A stretch of DNA of 64,000 nt from Lactococcus garvieae (GTDB taxonomy: Bacteria; Bacillota; Bacilli; Lactobacillales; Streptococcaceae): positions 4,836 to 68,835 of the forward strand of contig NZ_WIVG01000004.1 of assembly GCF_016758115.1 (NCBI RefSeq), given 5' to 3'. Position 1 is the first letter of the stretch, and each line of letters opens with the position of its first letter. The notes below the pieces were generated by a model. The model worked only from the letters and a program-made list of their open reading frames with translations. It was not told the DNA's origin and ran no database searches. Below are positions 4,777 to 61,175 of this stretch, piece by piece. A program made the translations under genes and the position numbers.

Positions 4777-4847
4777 TAGTCTCTTTCTTACAGAGAATGT
4801 TTTTCACTCAAAGGAACTTTTTCAGCTGCAGAGCACGCGATTTTCTA

Positions 4848-4884
4848 TTGGACATTATTTCTTTGAAATGGGATAATATAAGAA
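4848..4884 (+). promoter_or_regulatory. Promoter of ispA operon, candidate leaderless transcript
   Basis: TTGGAC at 4848-4853 and GATAAT at 4872-4877 are separated by 18 bases. The ispA ATG at 4885 is seven bases after the -10 and has no Shine-Dalgarno sequence, which is the geometry of a leaderless mRNA. Confidence 0.5.
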
Positions 4885-5736
4885 ATGGTTATCAATATGA
4901 AAATGCTTGAGAAAGAGCTCACAAAATTTTATGAAAAAGCTGAAATTCCTCAACACTTGGCAGCTTCAATAGTTTATTCACTTACAGCAGGTGGAAAAAG
5001 AATTCGTCCCCTTTTGTTCTTGCAGATGCTTAAAGCTTTTGGGATTCCACTTGAAACAGCGCACTATCAAGTTGCTGCTGCTGTAGAAATGATTCATACG
5101 GGCAGTTTGATTCATGACGACCTTCCGGCCATGGACAATGATGATTACCGTCGGGGACAGCTGACGAATCACAAAAAATTTGATGAAGCAACAGCAATCT
5201 TGGCAGGAGATTCGCTTTTTTTGGACCCTTACTATATACTGGCAAAGTCATCTTTTTCTGCACCAATAGTTGTAGACTTAGTGAAAGAGCTATCTTATGC
5301 AAGTGGTTCTTTGGGGATGGTCGCTGGACAAATTTTAGATATGGATGCTGAGAGAAAAACCTTATCCACGGAGCACGTTAAAAACATCCATCATTTGAAA
5401 ACAGGAAGAATGTTGGCTTTCCCTTTTGTAGCGGCTGGAATTATTGCTGAACAACCAGAAGATGTTATGGCAAAGTTACGAGAGATTGGACAAAATTTGG
5501 GATTGGCTTTCCAGATACGGGATGACATTCTTGATGTGACAGGAACATTTGAAGAAATCGGCAAAACACCAGGAAAAGATCAAGTGGAAGAAAAGTCAAC
5601 CTATGTTGCCCTACTTGGTTTACAAGGTGCACAGGAAGCTTTAAAGCGATTGCTGAAAACTGTAAAAGATGACTTGGCACAGGTTGCATCAAGTGCTGAA
5701 ATTATCGAAATTATAGAAAGTCTAGAAATAAAATGA
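4885..5736 (+). CDS. ispA: Polyprenyl (farnesyl) diphosphate synthase
   Basis: This enzyme condenses isopentenyl diphosphate onto allylic diphosphates to make farnesyl diphosphate for undecaprenyl and quinone synthesis. GGKRIRPLL binds substrate. The two Asp-rich motifs are HDDLPAMDND and QIRDDILD, and KTGRM supplies a conserved Lys. The 283-residue length fits. Three in-frame ATGs lie close together (4885, 4897, 4903); I chose 4885 because of its spacing from the promoter. It heads a coupled operon: its stop overlaps the start of tlyA by four bases. Confidence 0.93.
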   Translation: MVINMKMLEKELTKFYEKAEIPQHLAASIVYSLTAGGKRIRPLLFLQMLKAFGIPLETAHYQVAAAVEMIHTGSLIHDDLPAMDNDDYRRGQLTNHKKFDEATAILAGDSLFLDPYYILAKSSFSAPIVVDLVKELSYASGSLGMVAGQILDMDAERKTLSTEHVKNIHHLKTGRMLAFPFVAAGIIAEQPEDVMAKLREIGQNLGLAFQIRDDILDVTGTFEEIGKTPGKDQVEEKSTYVALLGLQGAQEALKRLLKTVKDDLAQVASSAEIIEIIESLEIK

Positions 5737-6542
5737 AAGAAAGAGTAGATGTTTTAGCAGCAAATCAAGGTTTATTTGAAACGAGGGAGCAGGCCAAACG
5801 TGGTGTTATGGCTGGCTTAGTGGTGGATGCTAAATCAGGTGAGCGCTTTGATAAGCCAGGACAAAAGATTGAAGACAGTACAGAACTAAGGCTCAAAGGA
5901 GAAAAGCTAAAGTATGTGAGTCGTGGTGGTCTGAAGTTAGAAAAAGCTCTGCAAGAGTTTTACCTTTCTGTGGAAGAAAAAACTTGCTTGGATATTGGTG
6001 CCTCAACAGGAGGTTTTACGGATGTTATGCTTCAAAATGGTGCTAAGCGTGTCTATGCCTTGGATGTTGGAACCAACCAGCTCGCATGGAAACTTCGTAA
6101 AGATAGTCGTGTTGTGGTGATGGAACAGTTTAACTTTCGCAAGGCTGTTTTAGAAGATTTTACACAAGGACAACCAGAATTCGCCTCAATTGATGTTAGC
6201 TTCATCTCTCTTGACTTGATTTTACCTCCCTTGTTTGATATTTTGGCAGAAGAGGGAGACGTTGCTGCTTTGATTAAACCACAGTTTGAGGCTGGGCGTA
6301 ATCAAGTGGGGAAAAATGGAATCATTAAGGATCCGAAAATACACAAGTGGACGATCGAAAAAGTCATAAATACAGCGCTGAGTACTGGATTTTCAGTAAA
6401 ACACTTAACCTTTTCTCCCATCAAAGGAGGGGCAGGGAATGTTGAATTTTTAGTGCATTTGAAAAAAGAAAAGGCAGCTACAGTCGCGTCTCATATTGAT
6501 ATTGAAGCTGTACTAAAAACAGAAAAGGAAACATTGACATGA
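5733..6542 (+). CDS. tlyA: TlyA family rRNA 2'-O-methyltransferase / hemolysin A
   Basis: TlyA proteins combine an N-terminal S4 RNA-binding domain (residues about 1-60, MKERVDVLAANQGLFETREQ onward) with an FtsJ-like SAM-dependent methyltransferase (CLDIGASTGGFTDVMLQNGA). In actinobacteria they methylate riboses in both ribosomal subunits; the exact target in lactococci is not shown by the sequence. The ATGA junction with ispA and another with argR show translational coupling. The order ispA-tlyA-argR-recN is common in Firmicutes. Confidence 0.92.
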   Translation: MKERVDVLAANQGLFETREQAKRGVMAGLVVDAKSGERFDKPGQKIEDSTELRLKGEKLKYVSRGGLKLEKALQEFYLSVEEKTCLDIGASTGGFTDVMLQNGAKRVYALDVGTNQLAWKLRKDSRVVVMEQFNFRKAVLEDFTQGQPEFASIDVSFISLDLILPPLFDILAEEGDVAALIKPQFEAGRNQVGKNGIIKDPKIHKWTIEKVINTALSTGFSVKHLTFSPIKGGAGNVEFLVHLKKEKAATVASHIDIEAVLKTEKETLT

Positions 6543-6985
6543 GAAGAGAAGAACGACTTGATTTTATTTCAAAACTCATTACCGCAAAAGAAGTGCAAAC
6601 TCAAGATGAACTTGTACAGGAGCTTTTGGAAAATGATATCGATGTGACTCAGGCGACAGTTTCACGGGATATTAAGTCCTTAGCTCTCATCAAAATCCCA
6701 GGAAGTCAAGGAGGCTATCGTTATGCTTTGCCACACCAGCATGACGAAAAACAAAAAGATCTCTTGCATAAAGAACTGGCCAATGAGGCGATTCTTGAAT
6801 TGAAAATGCATGAAAACATGATTTCAATCACGGCTAAACCTGGAACAACCAGCGTCATTAAAAAGAGTCTAATCAACCGTTACAATAAAAAAATATTTTC
6901 AATTATGACGGATGACGACAGTATTTTGATTATCTGTGAAACAAGACGGCAAGCGAATACAATTTATGACGAATTAAGTTTATAA
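6539..6985 (+). CDS. argR: ArgR/AhrC family arginine-responsive regulator
   Basis: The first 70 residues are the winged-helix DNA-binding domain, ending in the ATVSRDIKSLALIKIP signature. The C-terminal domain starts near GTTSVIKKSL and includes TDDDSILIICE, the oligomerisation and arginine-binding part. These regulators control arginine synthesis and catabolism. Lactococci usually have two paralogues (ArgR and AhrC), and which one this is cannot be settled from one copy. Its start overlaps the tlyA stop, and recN follows 11 bases later. Confidence 0.9.
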   Translation: MRREERLDFISKLITAKEVQTQDELVQELLENDIDVTQATVSRDIKSLALIKIPGSQGGYRYALPHQHDEKQKDLLHKELANEAILELKMHENMISITAKPGTTSVIKKSLINRYNKKIFSIMTDDDSILIICETRRQANTIYDELSL

Positions 6986-6996
6986 AAGGAAACGGT

Positions 6997-8661
6997 ATGC
7001 TACAAGAAATTTCTATCAAAAACTTTGCAATTATCGAAGAAATTCATATCTCTTTTGAAAATGGAATGACGATTTTGACAGGTGAAACTGGAGCTGGGAA
7101 GTCTATTATCATTGATGCAATGGGGCTTTTACTTGGCGGGCGTAGTTCGAGTGACTTTGTCCGTACAGGTAAAGATAAGGCCGAGATTGAGGGGCTATTT
7201 TTTGCAGAGGAAAACAAAGAACTTGAGCGGAGACTTGAAGATTTAGGTCTTGAAAGCAGCAGTGAACTTATTTTGCGTCGGGATATTTTTGCTAACGGCC
7301 GTTCAGTTTGTCGTGTGAATGGGCAAATGGTTAATCTTGCAACATTACGAGAAATAGGAGAGCTTTTGGTTGATATTCATGGTCAACATGACAATCAAGA
7401 ATTAATGAATGCTAAGCATCACCTCCGTTTGCTTGATGAGTTTGGAGATGAAACATTTGAACAAATCAAGTCGGAGTATCAGATTAAGTTTGAACACTAT
7501 AAAAAAATTCGACAAGCTTTAGAAACCCGCCAAAAAAATGAGCAGGAGTTTGCGCAGCGTATTGAAGTTTTACAATTTCAAGTGGAAGAAATTGAAGCAG
7601 CGGAAATTGACCTAAAAGAAGATGAGCAATTGCAAGTACGCAGAGCCAAGCTCAACAACGCTAAAAATATAGCAGATGCTCTGAATACAGCTTATTTAGC
7701 TTTGGACGATGACGAAGGTGACTTTTCAAGTCTGAGTGGCATCCGTACAGCTATGTCTGAGTTAGAACATGCTGCTGAATTCGATCAGGATTATCAAGAT
7801 TTGTCGGATAAAACGATGGATGCTTATTATTTACTTGAAGAAGTGTCTACAAGGTTAGCCACAGCTATGGATATGGTCGAGTTCAATCCAACAGAGCTTT
7901 TGCAAATTGAAGAAAGAATCCTAACTTTAAACACGCTGCGCAAAAAATACGGTCCAGAACTTTCTGATGTTTTGCAAAGCTTGGAAAAGATACAGCTCGA
8001 ACTGTCAGACTTGACCGGAGGAACAGAAGACAGTGAGAGTCTAGAAGAAGCACTTAAGGAAGCACAAGCAGAACTTTTGGTAGCGAGTGAAGAACTCAAT
8101 ACTGCGCGGCATGCTATAGCCAAAGAACTTGAAGAAGACATAAAAAAAGAGCTTGCTGATCTTTACATGGAAAAAGCCGACTTTTCTGTGAAATTTGAGA
8201 GTGGAAAATTCTCAAGCAGAGGTAATGAGCAAGTAGAATTTTATATTCAAACCAATCCAGGAGAGGGATTCAAGCCTTTGGCAAAAACAGCATCTGGTGG
8301 AGAGCTGTCCCGTCTAATGCTGGCCATTAAATCTAGTTTTTCAAGACGTGAAAATAAAACTTCCATTGTCTTTGATGAGGTAGATACAGGTGTATCAGGA
8401 CGCGTTGCTCAGGCAATTGCGCAAAAAATATATAAGATTGCACAAGCTGGGCAAGTATTGGCGATTTCCCACCTCCCTCAAGTTGTCGCTATTGCTGACA
8501 CGCAATTTTACATAGAAAAAGCTTCAACAGATGATGTCACAACTTCAACAGTTCGAAAACTTCACTTAGAAGAACGGATTGAGGAAGTTGCAAAAATGTT
8601 AGCAGGGGATGATGTAACTGTAGAAGCCTTAGCGCAAGCAAAACGATTACTAATGAAATGA
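6997..8661 (+). CDS. recN: DNA repair protein RecN
   Basis: RecN is an SMC-like ATPase recruited early to double-strand breaks. The N-terminus MLQEISIKNFAIIEEI leads to the Walker A motif GETGAGKS. A long coiled coil occupies roughly residues 150-380. The ABC signature region ASGGELSRLMLAIK and the Walker B FDEVDTGVSG follow, then the ISHLPQV switch. Length (554) is typical. AAAGGAAAC precedes the ATG. It is the last gene of the ispA-tlyA-argR-recN string before the DUF805 gene, eight bases away. Confidence 0.97.
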   Translation: MLQEISIKNFAIIEEIHISFENGMTILTGETGAGKSIIIDAMGLLLGGRSSSDFVRTGKDKAEIEGLFFAEENKELERRLEDLGLESSSELILRRDIFANGRSVCRVNGQMVNLATLREIGELLVDIHGQHDNQELMNAKHHLRLLDEFGDETFEQIKSEYQIKFEHYKKIRQALETRQKNEQEFAQRIEVLQFQVEEIEAAEIDLKEDEQLQVRRAKLNNAKNIADALNTAYLALDDDEGDFSSLSGIRTAMSELEHAAEFDQDYQDLSDKTMDAYYLLEEVSTRLATAMDMVEFNPTELLQIEERILTLNTLRKKYGPELSDVLQSLEKIQLELSDLTGGTEDSESLEEALKEAQAELLVASEELNTARHAIAKELEEDIKKELADLYMEKADFSVKFESGKFSSRGNEQVEFYIQTNPGEGFKPLAKTASGGELSRLMLAIKSSFSRRENKTSIVFDEVDTGVSGRVAQAIAQKIYKIAQAGQVLAISHLPQVVAIADTQFYIEKASTDDVTTSTVRKLHLEERIEEVAKMLAGDDVTVEALAQAKRLLMK

Positions 8662-19891: not shown

Positions 19892-20327
19892 GTAAATGTT
19901 GGTAAATTTTCTTGTAAAATATTATAATTAAACCATATTAGGTCACTTATATGTGGAAATTCTGTTAAGGCTCACTGAGTCTCAAAAAAAAATCATAAGT
20001 TTTCTGAATTTTGGGATATATAACGTAATGAAACTTTTGTCAAAATATCAATCTTATTTTTATGGAAAGTTGAAAATGAAAAATTAAATTTTCTTTATAA
20101 TTATGAGTTTAAATAATGTGTTTTAAAAGATTATCTTTTCTATACCATAAATCTTATAAAATGGATGAATAACAGCTTTTTCTGGTGGTGTTTCTCACAA
20201 AATTTCATTTTGTTTATAAAAGTAAAATGAGTTTTATATTAAAAACATTTGACTTTGCTATTTTAATTATATAAACTTGTATTAAGTTGATAAAAAATTT
20301 CTAATGCTACAAAGATGGAGGTCTGTT
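19892..20327 (+). promoter_or_regulatory. Long AT-rich upstream region of glgC with promoter at 20249-20277
   Basis: No gene is visible in these 436 bases. The best promoter is TTGACT at 20249-20254 with TAAACT at 20272-20277, a 17-base spacer, 50 bases before the glgC start. A second candidate is TTGGTA at 19899-19904 with TATAAT at 19923-19928. I found no clear catabolite-responsive element. The ribosome site GGAGG at 20317-20321 decides the glgC start at 20328. Confidence 0.5.
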
Positions 20328-20687
20328 ATGGGAATAGAAATGCTTGGACTTATTCTTGCAGGAGGACAAGGAACGCGTCTGGGAAAGCTGACCAAGGATG
20401 TTGCAAAACCAGCTGTGCCCTTTGGAGGGCGTTATCGTATCATTGATTTTTCCCTGTCCAACTGTGTCAATTCAAACGTTAAAAATGTCGGTGTCATTAC
20501 ACAATATGAACCTTTGGTACTTAATGAACATATCGGAAATGGGGCGCCTTGGGGATTAAATGGCGTTAACAGTGACGTAACAATTTTGCAACCTTATTCT
20601 TCAGCAGAGGGAAGCAAGTATTTTGAAGGAACAGCGCATGCTATTTATCAGAATATCGCTTATATTGCTAGTTTTAAAAATAAATAG
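20328..20687 (+). pseudogene. glgC: glgC 5' fragment, interrupted by prophage
   Basis: Glucose-1-phosphate adenylyltransferase makes ADP-glucose for glycogen. The fragment holds the N-terminal nucleotide-binding signature [20 protein letters not shown] and continues to the residues AYI at the attachment core. It then runs seven codons into phage sequence and stops at 20685-20687. The start is the ATG at 20328 after GGAGG, not the ATG at 20304. Joined to the fragment at 60373-61175 it gives 1143 nt, a full-length 380-residue enzyme. The fragment lacks most of the catalytic and all of the beta-helix domain, so it should be inactive. Confidence 0.95.
20654..20667 (+). other. attL core
   Basis: TATCGCTTATATTG is identical at 20654-20667 and 60359-60372. 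The flanking bases differ immediately on both sides, so the shared core is exactly 14 bp. It encodes the residues IAY(I) of GlgC and keeps the reading frame on both sides. Confidence 0.9.
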
Positions 20688-20763: not shown

Positions 20764-20792
20764 AAACTGCTAGAGTAGTTCTAGCAGTTTTT
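20764..20792 (-). terminator. Hairpin over the 3' end of the integrase gene
   Basis: AAACTGCTAGA at 20764-20774 pairs with TCTAGCAGTTT at 20780-20790 and includes the integrase stop codon. T-runs flank it on both strands, so it may stop transcripts from the phage and from the glg side. Confidence 0.65.
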
Positions 20793-21924
20793 TGGTCTTA
20801 TCTTTTGCTTTTGAAGTAATATGCAAGTAGATATCTCGTGTTATATCCTCACTAGCATGTCCTACACGACGTTGAATAATATGAAGGGGAATATCTAATT
20901 CAGCAAGTTTAGAAACATGAGTATGCCGAAATATATGGGTAGATATGCGCTTATCTTGACTAAGGTTCATTTTGTCTTTGTGTGTTCTAAAGTATGTGTT
21001 GAGCGCAGAAATGGAGAGTGGGGTTTGTTTTGAAGTTGTAAAGATATATTCAGAGTTCTTGGAAAGCTTACAAGCCTCTTGAAATATTTTTATGGCTTGA
21101 GAGTTCAATTCAACCTCTCGCATACCGGAACTAGTTTTTGTCTGAGAACTTTTTGTTTGACTCTTGGTTTTCTTTCCGGCATAATCAAGAGTCCCTGTAA
21201 CTTTGCAATAACTCCGTTCTTCGGTTATTATTACATCAGATTTGAGCATTGCTGCTGCTTCACCGAAACGTAAACCATTAAGGTATAGCCATTGACAAAA
21301 AAGATAATAGCGCATATTATGATTTTTGAGATAGTTCATCACATTTTTTAGCTCATCTTCTTCAAGAAAAAATTCAGTTACTACATGTGCTTCTTTTTTC
21401 TTATTTGGAATCTTTAGTTTGTCTATAGGATTCTCAATCAAATAGTGGTGATCAATGCCATAATTAAAAATTGCATTTAAACGTGATTTAAGAGAACGGG
21501 CGTAGCTGGTAGAAACTTTGTGTTTAGTTGTGTCGCTGAACATAATCTCTTCAAATTTGTGCCGTAAGTATTGTGGAGTGATTTTCGCAGGAAGTGTATC
21601 TTTGCCGACCATTTCAATTATAATTTTCACTTGCCCTTGTACAGAATAGACAGTAGAATCTTTGACTTGTTTTTTATAATATTCAAACCATTTGTTGGCC
21701 AAATTTTCAAAAGTGATGGTCTTGAGTGAACGAGAGCTGTCTTGTTGGCGAAGTGAAATTCTTGATAATAGGATTTTCTGAGCTTTTGTTCTCGTTTCAC
21801 GAGTATTCTTATCAAAAGTTACGGAAATTGTCCGCTTTTTACCTGTCAAATTATCATTATATTTTTCTCTAAATAAATATTTTACTTTGTTTGTTTCTGG
21901 ATTTATCTTTTTTTCTATCCACAT
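20770..21924 (-). CDS. int: Phage integrase, tyrosine recombinase
   Basis: The 384-residue protein has an arm-binding N-terminal domain (residues 1-65), a core-binding helical domain (about 70-170) and a catalytic domain. The catalytic residues are visible: Arg219 in LNGLRFGEA, H330-x-x-R333 in HIFRHTHVS, His356 in VGHASED and the nucleophile Tyr366 in IYLHIT. A Lys-rich beta hairpin lies near 251-264. AAGGAGTGAATTTCAA precedes the ATG. It lies next to attL, as expected, and should catalyse insertion into and excision from glgC. A + strand promoter overlaps its start region. Confidence 0.96.
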   Translation of the reverse strand: MWIEKKINPETNKVKYLFREKYNDNLTGKKRTISVTFDKNTRETRTKAQKILLSRISLRQQDSSRSLKTITFENLANKWFEYYKKQVKDSTVYSVQGQVKIIIEMVGKDTLPAKITPQYLRHKFEEIMFSDTTKHKVSTSYARSLKSRLNAIFNYGIDHHYLIENPIDKLKIPNKKKEAHVVTEFFLEEDELKNVMNYLKNHNMRYYLFCQWLYLNGLRFGEAAAMLKSDVIITEERSYCKVTGTLDYAGKKTKSQTKSSQTKTSSGMREVELNSQAIKIFQEACKLSKNSEYIFTTSKQTPLSISALNTYFRTHKDKMNLSQDKRISTHIFRHTHVSKLAELDIPLHIIQRRVGHASEDITRDIYLHITSKAKDKTKKLLELL

Positions 21925-54014: not shown

Positions 54015-54233
54015 ATGAATGTTAGTAATAAAGTTTATGACAGAGTGAAGTGGATTGTTCTTACTGTATTACCAGCTTTTAGTGCCTTTGTAGGCGTGTT
54101 GGGAAATGCTTATGGCTGGGAAGGCACGGATTTAGCAGTCATTACAATCAATGCATTCACTGTCTTTTTAGGAGCTGTTACAGGATATAGCTCTTATCAG
54201 TATGGCAAGAAAGAAGGAGAAGACCATGCGTGA
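54015..54233 (+). CDS. Holin
   Basis: The 72-residue protein has two hydrophobic segments (WIVLTVLPAFSAFVGVLG and LAVITINAFTVFLGAVTGY) and a charged end, like the phi LC3-type holins of lactococcal phages. It makes the lesion through which the endolysin reaches the wall. GGAGGAAAAACAA precedes the ATG. Confidence 0.85.
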   Translation: MNVSNKVYDRVKWIVLTVLPAFSAFVGVLGNAYGWEGTDLAVITINAFTVFLGAVTGYSSYQYGKKEGEDHA

Positions 54234-54360
54234 AGAAAAAGTTGAAAAAGTAGAGCAACCCCTAGGCATGCAACCTATGACGGCAGAAGAACGCAAGCAG
54301 TATGGCTTGCCCCCTTTGAAGGAGGAAACAGACAATGTGGAAACAAAAAGTAATACCTGA
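54226..54360 (+). CDS. Small ORF between holin and endolysin
   Basis: ATG at 54226 follows GAAGGAGAAGACC and opens a 44-residue charged frame (MREEKVEKVEQPLGMQPMTA onward) that stops at 54358-54360. It overlaps the holin end by eight bases and the endolysin start by 26. Good ribosome site and tight overlaps on both sides support a real gene; the function is unknown. Confidence 0.6.
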   Translation: MREEKVEKVEQPLGMQPMTAEERKQYGLPPLKEETDNVETKSNT

Positions 54361-55024
54361 TGTCAATGTGCCAGGCTACAGTGGTGGCTGTTTAGCCTAT
54401 GTGGATGACGGGATTAATCCCCCTAACCGCCAACCCACGGCACAAGTTTCTTGGCAACATGCAAAAGATATGAAAGTGGCTCATCCTCATGAAGAACCAC
54501 CGCTTCATGTTTGGGTAGCCGTTTATTATGAAATCTTGAATGGCCCATGGGCAGGTTATGGGCATGTGGCATGGTTCTATTCAGACGGAGTAAGCACACA
54601 AATTTATGACAGCGAATTTGGCTGTGGCAACCGTTCTGTGCCCTATTCGAGCGGTGCAGAGATGTATAACTATATGGGGTGGCAAATGCGCTATCTGGGC
54701 TGGTCTGAGGCTGTGGACGGCAAACAAGTTGTGACAGCGGCTAAAGAAGAGCCTCAAAAGGAAAGTATCCCTAGTTCATCATCTCAAGTTCCTAGATCAT
54801 CAAATCAAAAAGGAGAAATCGAAATGTATTTAATTCAAATTGTAGACACTAAAGGACCTCATAAAGGAAAATGGTATGTATCAAATGGTGTAAGTTGCCG
54901 TTACGTACGTACTCCACGTATGTTGGATAACTACAGAAACAAGTTTGGACAGCTCAATTTGCGAGTTGACAAGATGTATTCCAGTGAGTTGTTTAAAGAG
55001 TTTCCAGAAAATAAAATTTTATAA
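54335..55024 (+). CDS. Endolysin with C-terminal wall-binding domain
   Basis: The 229-residue endolysin has an N-terminal enzymatic domain with an active-site-like Cys and His (GYSGGCLAYVDDG at residue 19; GYGHVAWFYSD), a CHAP-like pattern. A Ser/Pro/Lys linker spans about residues 135-163, and a C-terminal domain from residue 164 (MYLIQIVDTKGPHKGKWYVS) looks like a wall-binding module. There is no signal peptide, so export depends on the holin. AAGGAGG precedes the start. An internal ribosome site and ATG begin at 54811. Confidence 0.82.
   Translation: MWKQKVIPDVNVPGYSGGCLAYVDDGINPPNRQPTAQVSWQHAKDMKVAHPHEEPPLHVWVAVYYEILNGPWAGYGHVAWFYSDGVSTQIYDSEFGCGNRSVPYSSGAEMYNYMGWQMRYLGWSEAVDGKQVVTAAKEEPQKESIPSSSSQVPRSSNQKGEIEMYLIQIVDTKGPHKGKWYVSNGVSCRYVRTPRMLDNYRNKFGQLNLRVDKMYSSELFKEFPENKIL
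54811..55024 (+). CDS. Internal in-frame start giving the separate wall-binding domain
   Basis: AGGAG at 54811-54815, after AAAA, lies eight bases before an ATG at 54824 that is in frame with the endolysin (codon 164). Translation there would give the 66-residue C-terminal wall-binding domain alone. Endolysins of some Gram-positive phages are known to make such a product, which joins the full-length protein in a hetero-oligomer. Confidence 0.6.
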
Positions 55025-57427: not shown

Positions 57428-57459
57428 GAGAAATGATACAATTAGGGGAGAGATTGCTC

Positions 57460-57952
57460 ATGGCTCATTCTATTTTTGAAATAGCTAATTGGTTTTTGGC
57501 TAAAGAATCTATGACACCAAAAAAACTTCAAAAATTAACCTACTATGCAGAAGCTTGGAGTCATGCGCTACTAGACCGTTCTATCGTTAATGATACTAAA
57601 TTTGAAACTTGGGCACATGGTCCAGTATCTAGTGAGCTATATGGTAAATATCGAGACTATGGTTGGAATGATATTCCTAAGTAAGATTCATATCCGAATA
57701 TAGGAGATACAAAAGACCTCGATTTATTAGAATCTGTATGGGAAACATATGGTGATATGAGTGCGAACGCGTTGGAAGCGCAGACTTATTCTGAAGAACT
57801 GTGGAAAAAGCTCGGAGACTAAAGATTTTCATAAGTTTACAGATGAGATTTTGTCTAAGCGTTTGACTATAAGTCAAGTTGATAAGCTTTTTTTGCGTAT
57901 AAAAGGTAAAGTTATTGAAAAAATGGAGAATGAAAGTGGAGCAAGAAATTGA
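57460..57952 (+). pseudogene. Panacea-domain (DUF4065/SocA-like) gene, broken by a stop and frameshift
   Basis: The start ATG at 57460 follows GGGGAGAG. The first 74 codons are a good Panacea domain (IFEIANWFLAKESMTPKKLQ, KLTYYAEAWSHALLD, FETWAHGPVSSELY). A TAA at 57682-57684 interrupts it; the same frame then continues with matching sequence (DSYPNIGDTKDLDLLESVWE, QTYSEELWKK) until a second stop. The last part (KDFHKFTDEILSKRLTISQV) is in another frame. One nonsense change and at least one small indel explain this. The remnant precedes and slightly overlaps the toxin gene. Confidence 0.8.
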
Positions 57953-58580
57953 TTCATATTTAGAAGTTCTTAAAGTCATAAATGAAATCAATAATTTACA
58001 TAAAGCTTTTTCTCTAGAACGAGCGGATTTTTTGAATTATAATTTAAGAAAAAATGTCAAAACTGTAGTTAATAGTTCAGGTATTAATGATAATTTTTCT
58101 GTCTTAATAAACCAGTATAAAAGAGAGTTGAATGCCAGTGTAACTTGTTTTCTAGATATACAAATGACTTTTCCTAACCTAAGATATCGTATAAAGCAAG
58201 GTGAATCTATTAGTGAGAAACTTCTCTATTATATGACTGATGCACACCAAAATGGTGAAGTTCCATTGAATAAGTGTTTGAATGATTTTCTTGGATTTAG
58301 AATATTGGTGCCTAACTTGGATGCGATTTATAATTGTCTAAATCTTGATGAAGATTTAAATAAAGTTGTTAAATTATATTTAAGAAAAGATGGTCAATAT
58401 AAAGGAGCGCATATATATTTTAAAAATGGCAATAATAAGTTCTTTCCGTGGGAATTACAGTTATGGGATATTGATCAGGCGGAGACAAATGAGTTGTCAC
58501 ATAAGGAACATAAGCAGAAACGTAAGTATATTTCGTTACCACAAAATTATCATGATGGAAATCTAGAAAAGGAGGGGTAG
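57936..58580 (+). CDS. RelA/SpoT-domain toxin (toxSAS-like)
   Basis: The C-terminal two-thirds carry the synthetase pattern: LRYRIKQGESISEKL, LNDFLGFRILVPNLDAIYNC, YKGAHIYF, and WELQLWDIDQAETNELSHKE ending HKQKRKY. There is no hydrolase or regulatory domain, so it is a small single-domain alarmone synthetase-like protein. Toxic relatives (toxSAS) either make (p)ppApp-type alarmones or pyrophosphorylate tRNA 3' ends; which one applies here is unknown. The start is probably the GTG at 57936, six bases after GGAGA (214 residues); TTG 57915 and ATG 57930 are alternatives. The partner antitoxin follows three bases later. Confidence 0.82.
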   Translation: MEQEIDSYLEVLKVINEINNLHKAFSLERADFLNYNLRKNVKTVVNSSGINDNFSVLINQYKRELNASVTCFLDIQMTFPNLRYRIKQGESISEKLLYYMTDAHQNGEVPLNKCLNDFLGFRILVPNLDAIYNCLNLDEDLNKVVKLYLRKDGQYKGAHIYFKNGNNKFFPWELQLWDIDQAETNELSHKEHKQKRKYISLPQNYHDGNLEKEG

Positions 58581-58583
58581 TAC

Positions 58584-59327
58584 ATGTATCAACATTTTAT
58601 AATAATTGCTAGTTCATATACAGAGGGTAGAAGAATTGGCTTTCATTTATTTGCAAAAGATCAAATAGAAAAAAATATTATCGAAGATAAGATGAGGAGA
58701 ATTAGCCAGATTAAGCGTGAAGATGTTGGTGTTCACTCTTTAATGACAGATAGTCCTAACTGGGAAAGTGTTATTAAATTGGATTCTTTCTTTGAAGATA
58801 TTATGGTATGTCAAAGCTTTGATGAATTTGAAGAAGTCTTAACATTTGATTCAAAAATAACAGCTATAGATATTGCTAAGTTCTTTTTATCTTTAAAACC
58901 TATGTCTCACCTAAAGATACAGAAATTAGTTTACTTGGCATATAAAGAATATCTTTTTAAATATAAACAGTCACTGTTTGAAGAAAAAATAGTTGCTTAT
59001 AAATACGGTCCTGTGGTAGAAGAAGTGTACCAAACTTTTAAAGAGTATGGTGCAAGTACAATTACAATGGATGATAGTACAGAATATATTTTAAAGGATA
59101 TACACTTTCCACAAGCTATGGGAAGGATGTTATTGGCAAGAGATGTGGATAAAATTGTACCCATTCTGTTAAAAATAGTTGAAGAATATGGTGATTTTAG
59201 TGGAGGAGATTTGGTTGATTTTACCCATGTAGAAAAAGGTCCATGGAGTACAGTTTATCAACCATATTTAAATTGTGAAATAACTGATGATGTAATTTTT
59301 TCACAAGGAAAATACGAAAAACTATAA
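58584..59327 (+). CDS. Panacea-domain antitoxin with N-terminal extension
   Basis: Residues about 92-230 form a Panacea domain (ITAIDIAKFFLSLKPMSHLK, IQKLVYLAYKEYLFKYK, VAYKYGPVVEEVYQTFKEYG, and LVDFTHVEKGPWSTVYQP). Residues 1-90 are an extra domain that I do not recognise. Panacea proteins neutralise several unrelated toxins, including toxSAS. GGAGGGG inside the toxin end is the ribosome site, so the pair is coupled, toxin first. It is intact at 247 residues. Confidence 0.83.
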   Translation: MYQHFIIIASSYTEGRRIGFHLFAKDQIEKNIIEDKMRRISQIKREDVGVHSLMTDSPNWESVIKLDSFFEDIMVCQSFDEFEEVLTFDSKITAIDIAKFFLSLKPMSHLKIQKLVYLAYKEYLFKYKQSLFEEKIVAYKYGPVVEEVYQTFKEYGASTITMDDSTEYILKDIHFPQAMGRMLLARDVDKIVPILLKIVEEYGDFSGGDLVDFTHVEKGPWSTVYQPYLNCEITDDVIFSQGKYEKL

Positions 59328-60066: not shown

Positions 60067-60358
60067 CTTCTAGTTTCCAGAAAGTTAGTCTATTTGATAA
60101 AATATAAAATATGTTATAATGAATGTCTGTTCTTATAGGTGAATCCCTACTTCGGTGGGGATTTTGTGATACAATGGGAACACAATTCAATTTGCCTCCC
60201 TTGTTTTGGGGAGGTTTTTTGGTGGGCAAAAAGTGGGCCAGTTTTTAATGAGTTGTTAATAATTGATTGATTATAGTTTGTTTCAAGAATGCTGTATAAT
60301 CCTTTGTTTATCCCTGTTTATATAGTTTTTAGAGATAAACAAAATCTTTGAACTTCTT
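60067..60358 (+). other. Right-end non-coding region with two terminators and arm repeats
   Basis: AATCCCTAC-TTCG-GTGGGGATT at 60142-60163 is a 9-bp stem with a UUCG loop. CCTCCC/GGGAGG at 60195-60214 is a second hairpin followed by TTTTTT. The repeats GGTGGGCAAA (60221-60230) and AGTGGGCCAG (60232-60241) match the left arm pair, 118 bp from attR. No gene is seen. Confidence 0.65.
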
Positions 60359-60372
60359 TATCGCTTATATTG
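60359..60372 (+). other. attR core
   Basis: Second copy of TATCGCTTATATTG. Downstream sequence reads on into the GlgC frame ([20 protein letters not shown]). Confidence 0.9.
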
Positions 60373-61175
60373 ATAAAAAAGATCCTGAATATATTTTGAT
60401 TTTATCCGGTGACCATATCTATAAGATGGATTATGAAGCAATGCTAAACAGCCATAAAGAGCATGGCGCCAGTTTGACGGTTTCTGTTATGGAATTGCCT
60501 CTAGAAGAAGCCAGTCGTTTTGGCATTATGAACACGGATGATAACGGCCGTATCATTGAATTTGCAGAAAAGCCCTCTGAGCCCAAATCTAATCTGGCTT
60601 CGATGGGGATTTATATTTTTAATTGGAAACGGCTACGTGAAGTCTTGGTTACAGGCTATGCAAAAGGTGTTGACATGGAGGATTTTGGAGGCAATGTGAT
60701 TCCTGCCTACATTGATTCAGGAGAGAATGTTTTTGCTTACCGATTTAAGGGCTATTGGAAGGATGTGGGAACGATTGATAGCCTGCACGAGTCAAGCATG
60801 GAATTTCTTGATTTAAAAAACGAACTTAATATTACAGATAAAGAATGGCGCATTTACTCACGTAACGATATCTCAGCGCCGCAATTTCTTACGTCTAAAG
60901 CCAATGTCAAAGCTTCTTTGGTCGGTGATGGCAGCTATGTTGACGGTCAGGTAACAGATTCCATTTTATCGCAGAATGTCCATGTTCAGGAAGGAACTGA
61001 GATAGAAAAAAGCTTCGTTATGTCGGGGGCACATATTGGAAAAAATGTAACCATAAAATATGCAATTCTTGGAGAAAAAGCTTATATAGGTGATAATGTA
61101 GAGATTATCGGCAAGCCAGGTGATATTGCTGTGATTGGTCACAGAGAAGTAAAAGGTGAAGAAAATGAAGACTGA
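60373..61175 (+). pseudogene. glgC: glgC 3' fragment, separated from its start by the prophage
   Basis: The fragment has the catalytic pattern [53 protein letters not shown] and the C-terminal beta-helix ([20 protein letters not shown]). Without the N-terminal AGGQGTR loop it cannot make ADP-glucose. A TTG at 60348 opens an in-frame ORF through attR but has no ribosome site. Its stop overlaps glgD by 11 bases. Confidence 0.95.

Follow-up and report, generated by a model that had tools for sequence, protein, structure and literature searches.

An internal start codon at the wall-binding domain of a Lactococcus prophage endolysin and its likely use in a two-polypeptide enzyme

The endolysin locus and its two start signals

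The window analysed here, a stretch of 64,000 nucleotides from Lactococcus garvieae (contig NZ_WIVG01000004.1; all coordinates refer to this window), appears to hold a prophage of roughly 39.7 kb that interrupts the glycogen gene glgC. Copies of a direct repeat of 14 bp, TATCGCTTATATTG, lie at 20654-20667 and 60359-60372, the two break points of the apparent glgC, with an N-terminal NTP_transferase half at 20304-20687, a C-terminal half carrying the GlgC-type helix at 60348-61175 and an integrase on the minus strand at 20770-21924. At the prophage end, two SocA_Panacea ORFs (57433-57684, which is short, and 58584-59327) flank an ORF (57915-58580) with a sub-threshold RelA_SpoT match, so that 57433-59327 is possibly a toxSAS-like Panacea toxin-antitoxin pair. 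The endolysin gene (54335-55024, plus strand) adjoins a Dp-1-type holin gene (54015-54233, plus strand; Phage_holin_Dp1, Pfam 2.6e-20; phrog_881). Its ORF runs from an ATG at 54335 to a stop codon at 55022-55024, encodes a full-length product of 229 residues and matches the PHROG endolysin families phrog_7, phrog_670 and phrog_1110; a genome of the same genus (G007) contains the nearest copy, at 94% identity. An additional ORF of 44 residues (54226-54360), which has its own AAGGAG and no Pfam family, overlaps the end of the holin and the start of the endolysin.

Two start signals are present in this gene. The full-length start is preceded by the Shine-Dalgarno (SD) sequence AAGGAGG (54319-54325, plus strand), a 7-nt SD match. 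The internal SD, AAAGGAG (54809-54815, plus strand; AGGAG core 54811-54815), lies 8 nt ahead of an in-frame ATG (54824-54826, plus strand), from which 66 residues are encoded up to the stop codon. The first-pass annotation had placed the AGGAG at 54811 and the in-frame ATG of the 66-residue product at 54824, codon 164, and re-reading of the sequence gave exactly these positions. The internal SD match is as long as the main one (7 nt each), and the predicted local structure of 70-nt segments amounts to -2.5 kcal/mol at the internal start versus -7.8 at the main start.

How often such a signal arises inside genes was estimated from the 58 non-overlapping ORFs of at least 100 aa in the window (a mechanical, uncurated list), which contain 360 in-frame internal ATGs. 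An SD match of at least 6 nt precedes seven of these ATGs, spread over seven of the 58 ORFs, and a match of 7 nt precedes three, ATG 54824 among them. A strong SD match by itself occurs in roughly every eighth ORF, and the single site is unusual, not decisive. A chance SD-like sequence ahead of a methionine codon, on which no selection acts, would be compatible with these three 7-nt matches; it is the position at the domain border, together with the conservation in relatives, that places the internal start of the endolysin beyond chance.

Domains on either side of the internal start

For the complete 229-residue chain, AlphaFold2 (25 aligned sequences, mean pLDDT 84) predicts two confident domains, at about residues 1-136 and 164-226, connected by a linker (residues 137-163; 54743-54823, plus strand) that is mostly disordered, its residues 140-145 and 147-161 having pLDDT below 50. 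A first model with few rows for the catalytic domain was poor in that part (mean pLDDT 52), and more divergent relatives were then added; the means of ten-residue blocks are 70-97 over residues 1-140 and 161-229. The claim of the first-pass annotation that the internal ATG coincides with the border between linker and domain is borne out by the model, which sets Met164 between the disordered linker and the folded C-terminal domain, the first strand of which comprises residues 165-169. The gene thereby displays an in-frame internal start with a ribosome-binding site between its catalytic and wall-binding domains, the arrangement found in two-polypeptide endolysins.

The catalytic domain (residues 1-136; 54335-54742, plus strand) is predicted to have an NlpC/P60- or CHAP-like fold. 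VIA-align matched it to Tae3 (Z 8.9), to Tse1 (Z 7.6) and, with Z 6.9, to residues 1-143 of the full chain of LysIME-EF1. The best 28 structure rows, with a top Z of 8.9, are what we take to be Tae/Tse amidases and proteins of the NlpC/P60, CHAP and Gsp- or trypanothione-amidase types. The NlpC/P60-CHAP superfamily is defined by a cysteine that begins a helix and a histidine located on the sheet. Cys19 opens helix 19-27 and His77 opens strand 77-83 in the model, and both are kept in all 15 catalytic rows of the alignment (A6). By its modelled fold only, the N-terminal domain would be a cysteine peptidase or amidase of the NlpC/P60-CHAP kind. It is not assigned to any Pfam family, as Pfam searches up to E 1 gave no family for the whole protein or for the 66-residue domain, the models of the NlpC/P60-CHAP superfamily included. 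The stretch 54335-54742 also matches phrog_12298, which carries the label "membrane associated protein" and is probably a mislabelled endolysin domain.

The wall-binding domain, which is at the same time the predicted free C-terminal product (66 aa; 54824-55024, plus strand), belongs to a domain family common to the endolysins of lactococcal phages, and its model resembles PlyCB and the wall-binding domains of LysIME-EF1 and Lys170. These three proteins account for six of the best nine structure rows of the C-terminal domain model (PlyCB for four of them), all with modest Z values: PlyCB at the top (Z 6.6, 5-6% identity), LysIME-EF1 chain 6ist_A (Z 5.4, rmsd 3.4, 59 aligned residues, 12% identity) and the Lys170 domain (7d55; Z 4.9). 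The other three of the nine are no endolysins, namely a hypothetical domain of Streptococcus mutans (5.8) and ESX EccB (5.2-5.3), and fold Z values of 5-7 can reflect a common arrangement; unrelated EccB chains also reach 5. PlyCB recurs in the structure search that gave the Tae3 match. The best Foldseek match of the whole-protein model is LysIME-EF1 (E 2.6e-3, probability 0.60), with no match at E 0.001 or better. Sequence homology with the wall-binding domain of LysIME-EF1 was considered and not established, as hhalign aligned 10 columns only, around WYVSNG/WFVIGG (probability 1.8%, E 0.028). Against the sequences of solved structures, phmmer gave one insignificant match and the A1 profile none. 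Phage records with this domain number 295 and carry the names Lactococcus (292), Ceduovirus (2) or Skunavirus (1). In sampled genome searches it occurred in 8 of 335 genomes of the family, within two of ten genera, and at the level of the order in 1 of 395 genomes, namely its own; a pattern-limited scan of the genome collection returned two loci, both from Lactococcus.

Conservation of the internal start and its movement with the domain

For the comparison with relatives, 119 of 120 tblastn places were used (L063 has no upstream DNA and was left out), and repeats of one gene were merged to give 64 unique junctions. As only some of the 295 phage records were fetched, mostly via pattern scans of viral contigs, phages of the 936 and c2 types are over-represented in the sample. 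Of the 64 junctions, 63 share the position of the ATG and the remaining one has it a codon further, and GGAG, AGGA or GAGG is present upstream in 59, such that five junctions are without an SD core. Among 25 divergent representatives (less than 85% identity), the SD match reaches at least 5 nt in 21 and at least 6 nt in 17; for the 94 remaining in-frame ATGs in these genes the corresponding counts are 5 and none. The site is thus found at the same place in relatives, with a weak SD of just 4 nt in four of the 25 representatives (L032 and three of the 936 type), and the border ATG is strictly the best in-frame ATG by SD in 23 of the 25. Both the 64 and the 25 include the junction of L034, a possibly decayed cassette in genome G011. 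At this locus (4819-8246) three endolysin-like ORFs follow one another, of which two appear to be broken, and a wall-binding domain that is not fused keeps its SD and ATG; it was considered as a natural two-gene version and set aside, as the cassette seems to hold two broken endolysin frames and may reflect decay. Two c2-type records were excluded from the counts, namely that of phage CHPC967 (L133), with ambiguous bases and a broken endolysin gene without a junction, and PC_S1 (L134), with a stop inside the wall-binding domain and the SD and ATG kept.

A conserved SD could in principle be the trace of a conserved peptide. Under a synonymous-codon null model, with codon usage pooled from the same genes, a summed SD match length of 124.2 +/- 5.0 is expected, versus 149 observed, a value that none of 4000 simulations reached, and over the 17 distinct junction peptides 97 was observed versus 81.7 +/- 4.2 (P 0.00025); these pooled P values are optimistic, as the genes are related and recombine. 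Taken gene by gene, none of the tests is significant (P 0.059 to 0.81). The SD core occurs in differing codon phases among the relatives, e.g. over KGEIEM as opposed to NKELLDM in phages LW31 and LW32, and since the SD of the latter two lies in another phase over another junction peptide, a conserved peptide cannot explain the SD. Together these patterns suggest that selection acts on the internal start in most of the lineages compared. Chance without selection, which the window control left conceivable, fails as the sole explanation against the counts in representatives and the synonymous null, and with SD and ATG conserved across relatives it is very improbable.

The domain is placed behind many different catalytic halves. 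In lactococcal phages those ahead of it fall into eight Pfam families, with matches to NLPC_P60 and ELLD, Phage_lysozyme2 plus Amidase_5, CHAP plus Phage_lysozyme, Phage_lysozyme, Amidase_2, CHAP, Amidase_5 and Peptidase_M23, and some have no Pfam family (L030, L031 and the present gene). CHAP, NLPC_P60 and Amidase_5 are distantly related to each other, which does not hold for the lysozymes, Amidase_2 and M23. When 26 genes were compared in the 285 pairs that differ in catalytic label (the labels were assigned by us from Pfam matches of representatives and from similarity, and two of them share a lysozyme domain), identity per codon is 0.24-0.46 from -45 to -16, then 0.61-0.68 from -15, the position of the SD, and 1.00 at the ATG. 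This rise at the SD between genes whose catalytic halves differ indicates that the SD moves with the domain. The lactococcal wall-binding domain might then travel as a full expression cassette that comprises an SD, the ATG, the domain itself and the stop codon. Placed behind one catalytic domain after another, such a cassette would give each new endolysin a binding end together with an independent supply of free binding subunits, and the ratio of the two start sites would set the stoichiometry of the complex, a proposal to which we give even chances. Internal-start endolysins are already known; the part that is possibly new is the SD-ATG travelling with the domain as a portable cassette. In the open literature consulted, with subscription papers mostly outside its reach, there was no account in which this SD-ATG passes together with the lactococcal domain from one catalytic family to another, though Oechslin 2022 compares the 25 bp upstream within two groups (PMC9371310).

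The same rise in identity can be read differently. If the linker joint were a short shared piece of DNA at which catalytic and binding halves recombine, the SD and ATG would be a by-product of it and the enzyme would work as a single chain; identity between differing endolysins that begins just ahead of the SD is expected of such a joint, and the five of 64 junctions without an SD core also fit. A recombination joint accounts less well for an SD-like core that is kept over different junction peptides and codon phases, or for what is seen behind the same catalytic family. Of 11 distinct genes that combine this family with another C-terminal domain, some of them from other genera of the family, eight have an SD of at least 5 nt and a start (seven ATG, one TTG) at the border. 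The remaining cases without SD and start at the border are L120 (the same as L121), the C-terminus of which looks SH3-like, L126 (with near-identical copies L130 and L131) and L128. Further small C-terminal domains with an SD and ATG at the border, and no obvious similarity by eye, were noted in L003 (3845-4477), L118 (2495-3193), L124, L125, L127, L129 and L131. Judged from these sequences, the internal-start habit would not be tied to one binding-domain family.

Published lysins and the proposed two-polypeptide enzyme

Pinto 2022 screened Gram-positive endolysins and predicted internal starts in roughly half of them, although its predictor also flagged 15.2% of the portal genes that served as a control. 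Two products were shown for four endolysins, one of them LysLW32 of Lactococcus phage LW32, which was expressed in E. coli (PMC9430671). LysLW32 has the same wall-binding domain as the present gene (62% identity over 60 residues) and an internal ATG at the same place, preceded by AAGGAG, but differs in having an Amidase_2 catalytic domain (as judged by Pfam on the closely similar LW31 gene) and in its SD, which occupies a different codon phase and has a spacing of 9 nt. We infer that its published start is this same ATG from its place between the two domains, as the part of the source consulted gives no coordinate; the complex was not analysed there, since too little was soluble (PMC9430671). 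That LysLW32 makes two products argues against a by-product of recombination. On the other side, Oechslin 2022 noted an internal start in LysP008, Lysc2 and their relatives, and reported that E. coli made one polypeptide from each gene, even when the gene had not been codon-optimised, and that both enzymes showed lytic activity in vitro (PMC9371310). These two share the wall-binding domain family and the internal start with the present gene (junctions were taken from bIL170 for the 936 type and from a c2 record), but have Amidase_2 and lysozyme-like catalytic domains. In the case of LysIME-EF1, the 8-kDa band had earlier been overlooked owing to long gel runs (Zhou 2020; PMC7098653), and by analogy, as a conjecture, the same could explain the single-product result for LysP008 and Lysc2. 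Taken together, a by-product of recombination appears rather unlikely for the present gene.

Among the closest known systems are endolysins that form oligomers. LysIME-EF1, from an enterococcal phage, resembles the present endolysin in its cysteine peptidase-fold domain, linker, AAAGGAG, internal ATG and small wall-binding domain of possibly similar fold, and differs in its 11-nt SD-ATG spacing and in a wall-binding domain without significant sequence similarity; one full chain carries three free domains (Zhou 2020; PMC7098653). The complex of Lys170, likewise from an enterococcal phage, is also 1:3 (PMC9430671). LysP7951 of Streptococcus thermophilus phage P7951, likened here by its description and not by sequence, has the same plan, an internal start that separates a single catalytic domain from a single wall-binding domain, but a Glyco_hydro_25 catalytic domain and a 1:5 complex (PMC9430671). 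PlyC of streptococcal phage C1 contains the best fold match, PlyCB, as a separate chain in eight copies (PMC7098653), but PlyCA and PlyCB are encoded by two separate genes, and identity to the present domain is 5-6%.

The gene is probably that of a two-polypeptide endolysin of a Lactococcus prophage, in which the full enzyme and the free 66-residue domain assemble together. Ribosomes that start at 54335 would produce the full enzyme, i.e. a cysteine peptidase or amidase of NlpC/P60-CHAP fold, a flexible linker and the small wall-binding domain, while ribosomes loading independently at the internal SD and ATG 54824 would produce the wall-binding domain alone; the two starts most likely work in parallel. 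Within the two-product claim of the first-pass annotation, the internal start that would yield a free wall-binding domain is well supported by the conservation of SD and ATG, by LysLW32 and by the fold, and is opposed by the single polypeptide published for LysP008 and Lysc2. The present computations show the two signals, where the linker and the domain meet, the fold as predicted and the conservation; production of the second product from the present gene is likely. Since the internal SD is as long as the main one and lies in a region of little local structure, free domains may be in excess, which would suit complexes such as the 1:3 of Lys170 and LysIME-EF1 or the 1:5 of LysP7951. By analogy with these endolysins, the free domains most likely join the wall-binding end of the full enzyme, with a stoichiometry inferred from the same comparison, so that one catalytic arm would be placed on several binding units and would gain high avidity for the wall.

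Two products could also be made without associating, with the free domain acting alone, e.g. by occupying wall sites to limit the lysis of neighbouring cells or by tuning the time of lysis. A molecular-anchor role was proposed for the binding domain of CD16/50L (PMC9045149), and the two products of LysJavan488 were reported not to associate, although its short product still has a catalytic domain (PMC9430671). Against such independent action, the wall-binding domains closest in fold, those of PlyC, LysIME-EF1 and Lys170, sit in oligomers (PMC7098653; PMC9430671), and we regard it as improbable, compared with assembly of the full-length and short chains.

For the lactococcal domain, the available accounts of expression disagree about its internal start, which was used in LysLW32 (PMC9430671) but not in LysP008 and Lysc2 (PMC9371310); an 8-kDa product may have been missed in the latter, or its production may depend on the host. 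When lysP2 was codon-optimised, in work published in 2023, the internal ATG was kept, the ribosome site was lost and the enzyme was inactive, a result for which the authors regard the cause as unproven (PMC9894900) and which is suggestive support for the two-product reading. Since an internal ribosome site can be lost in this way when codons are optimised (PMC9894900), lactococcal lysins made from optimised genes may lack their free binding subunits.
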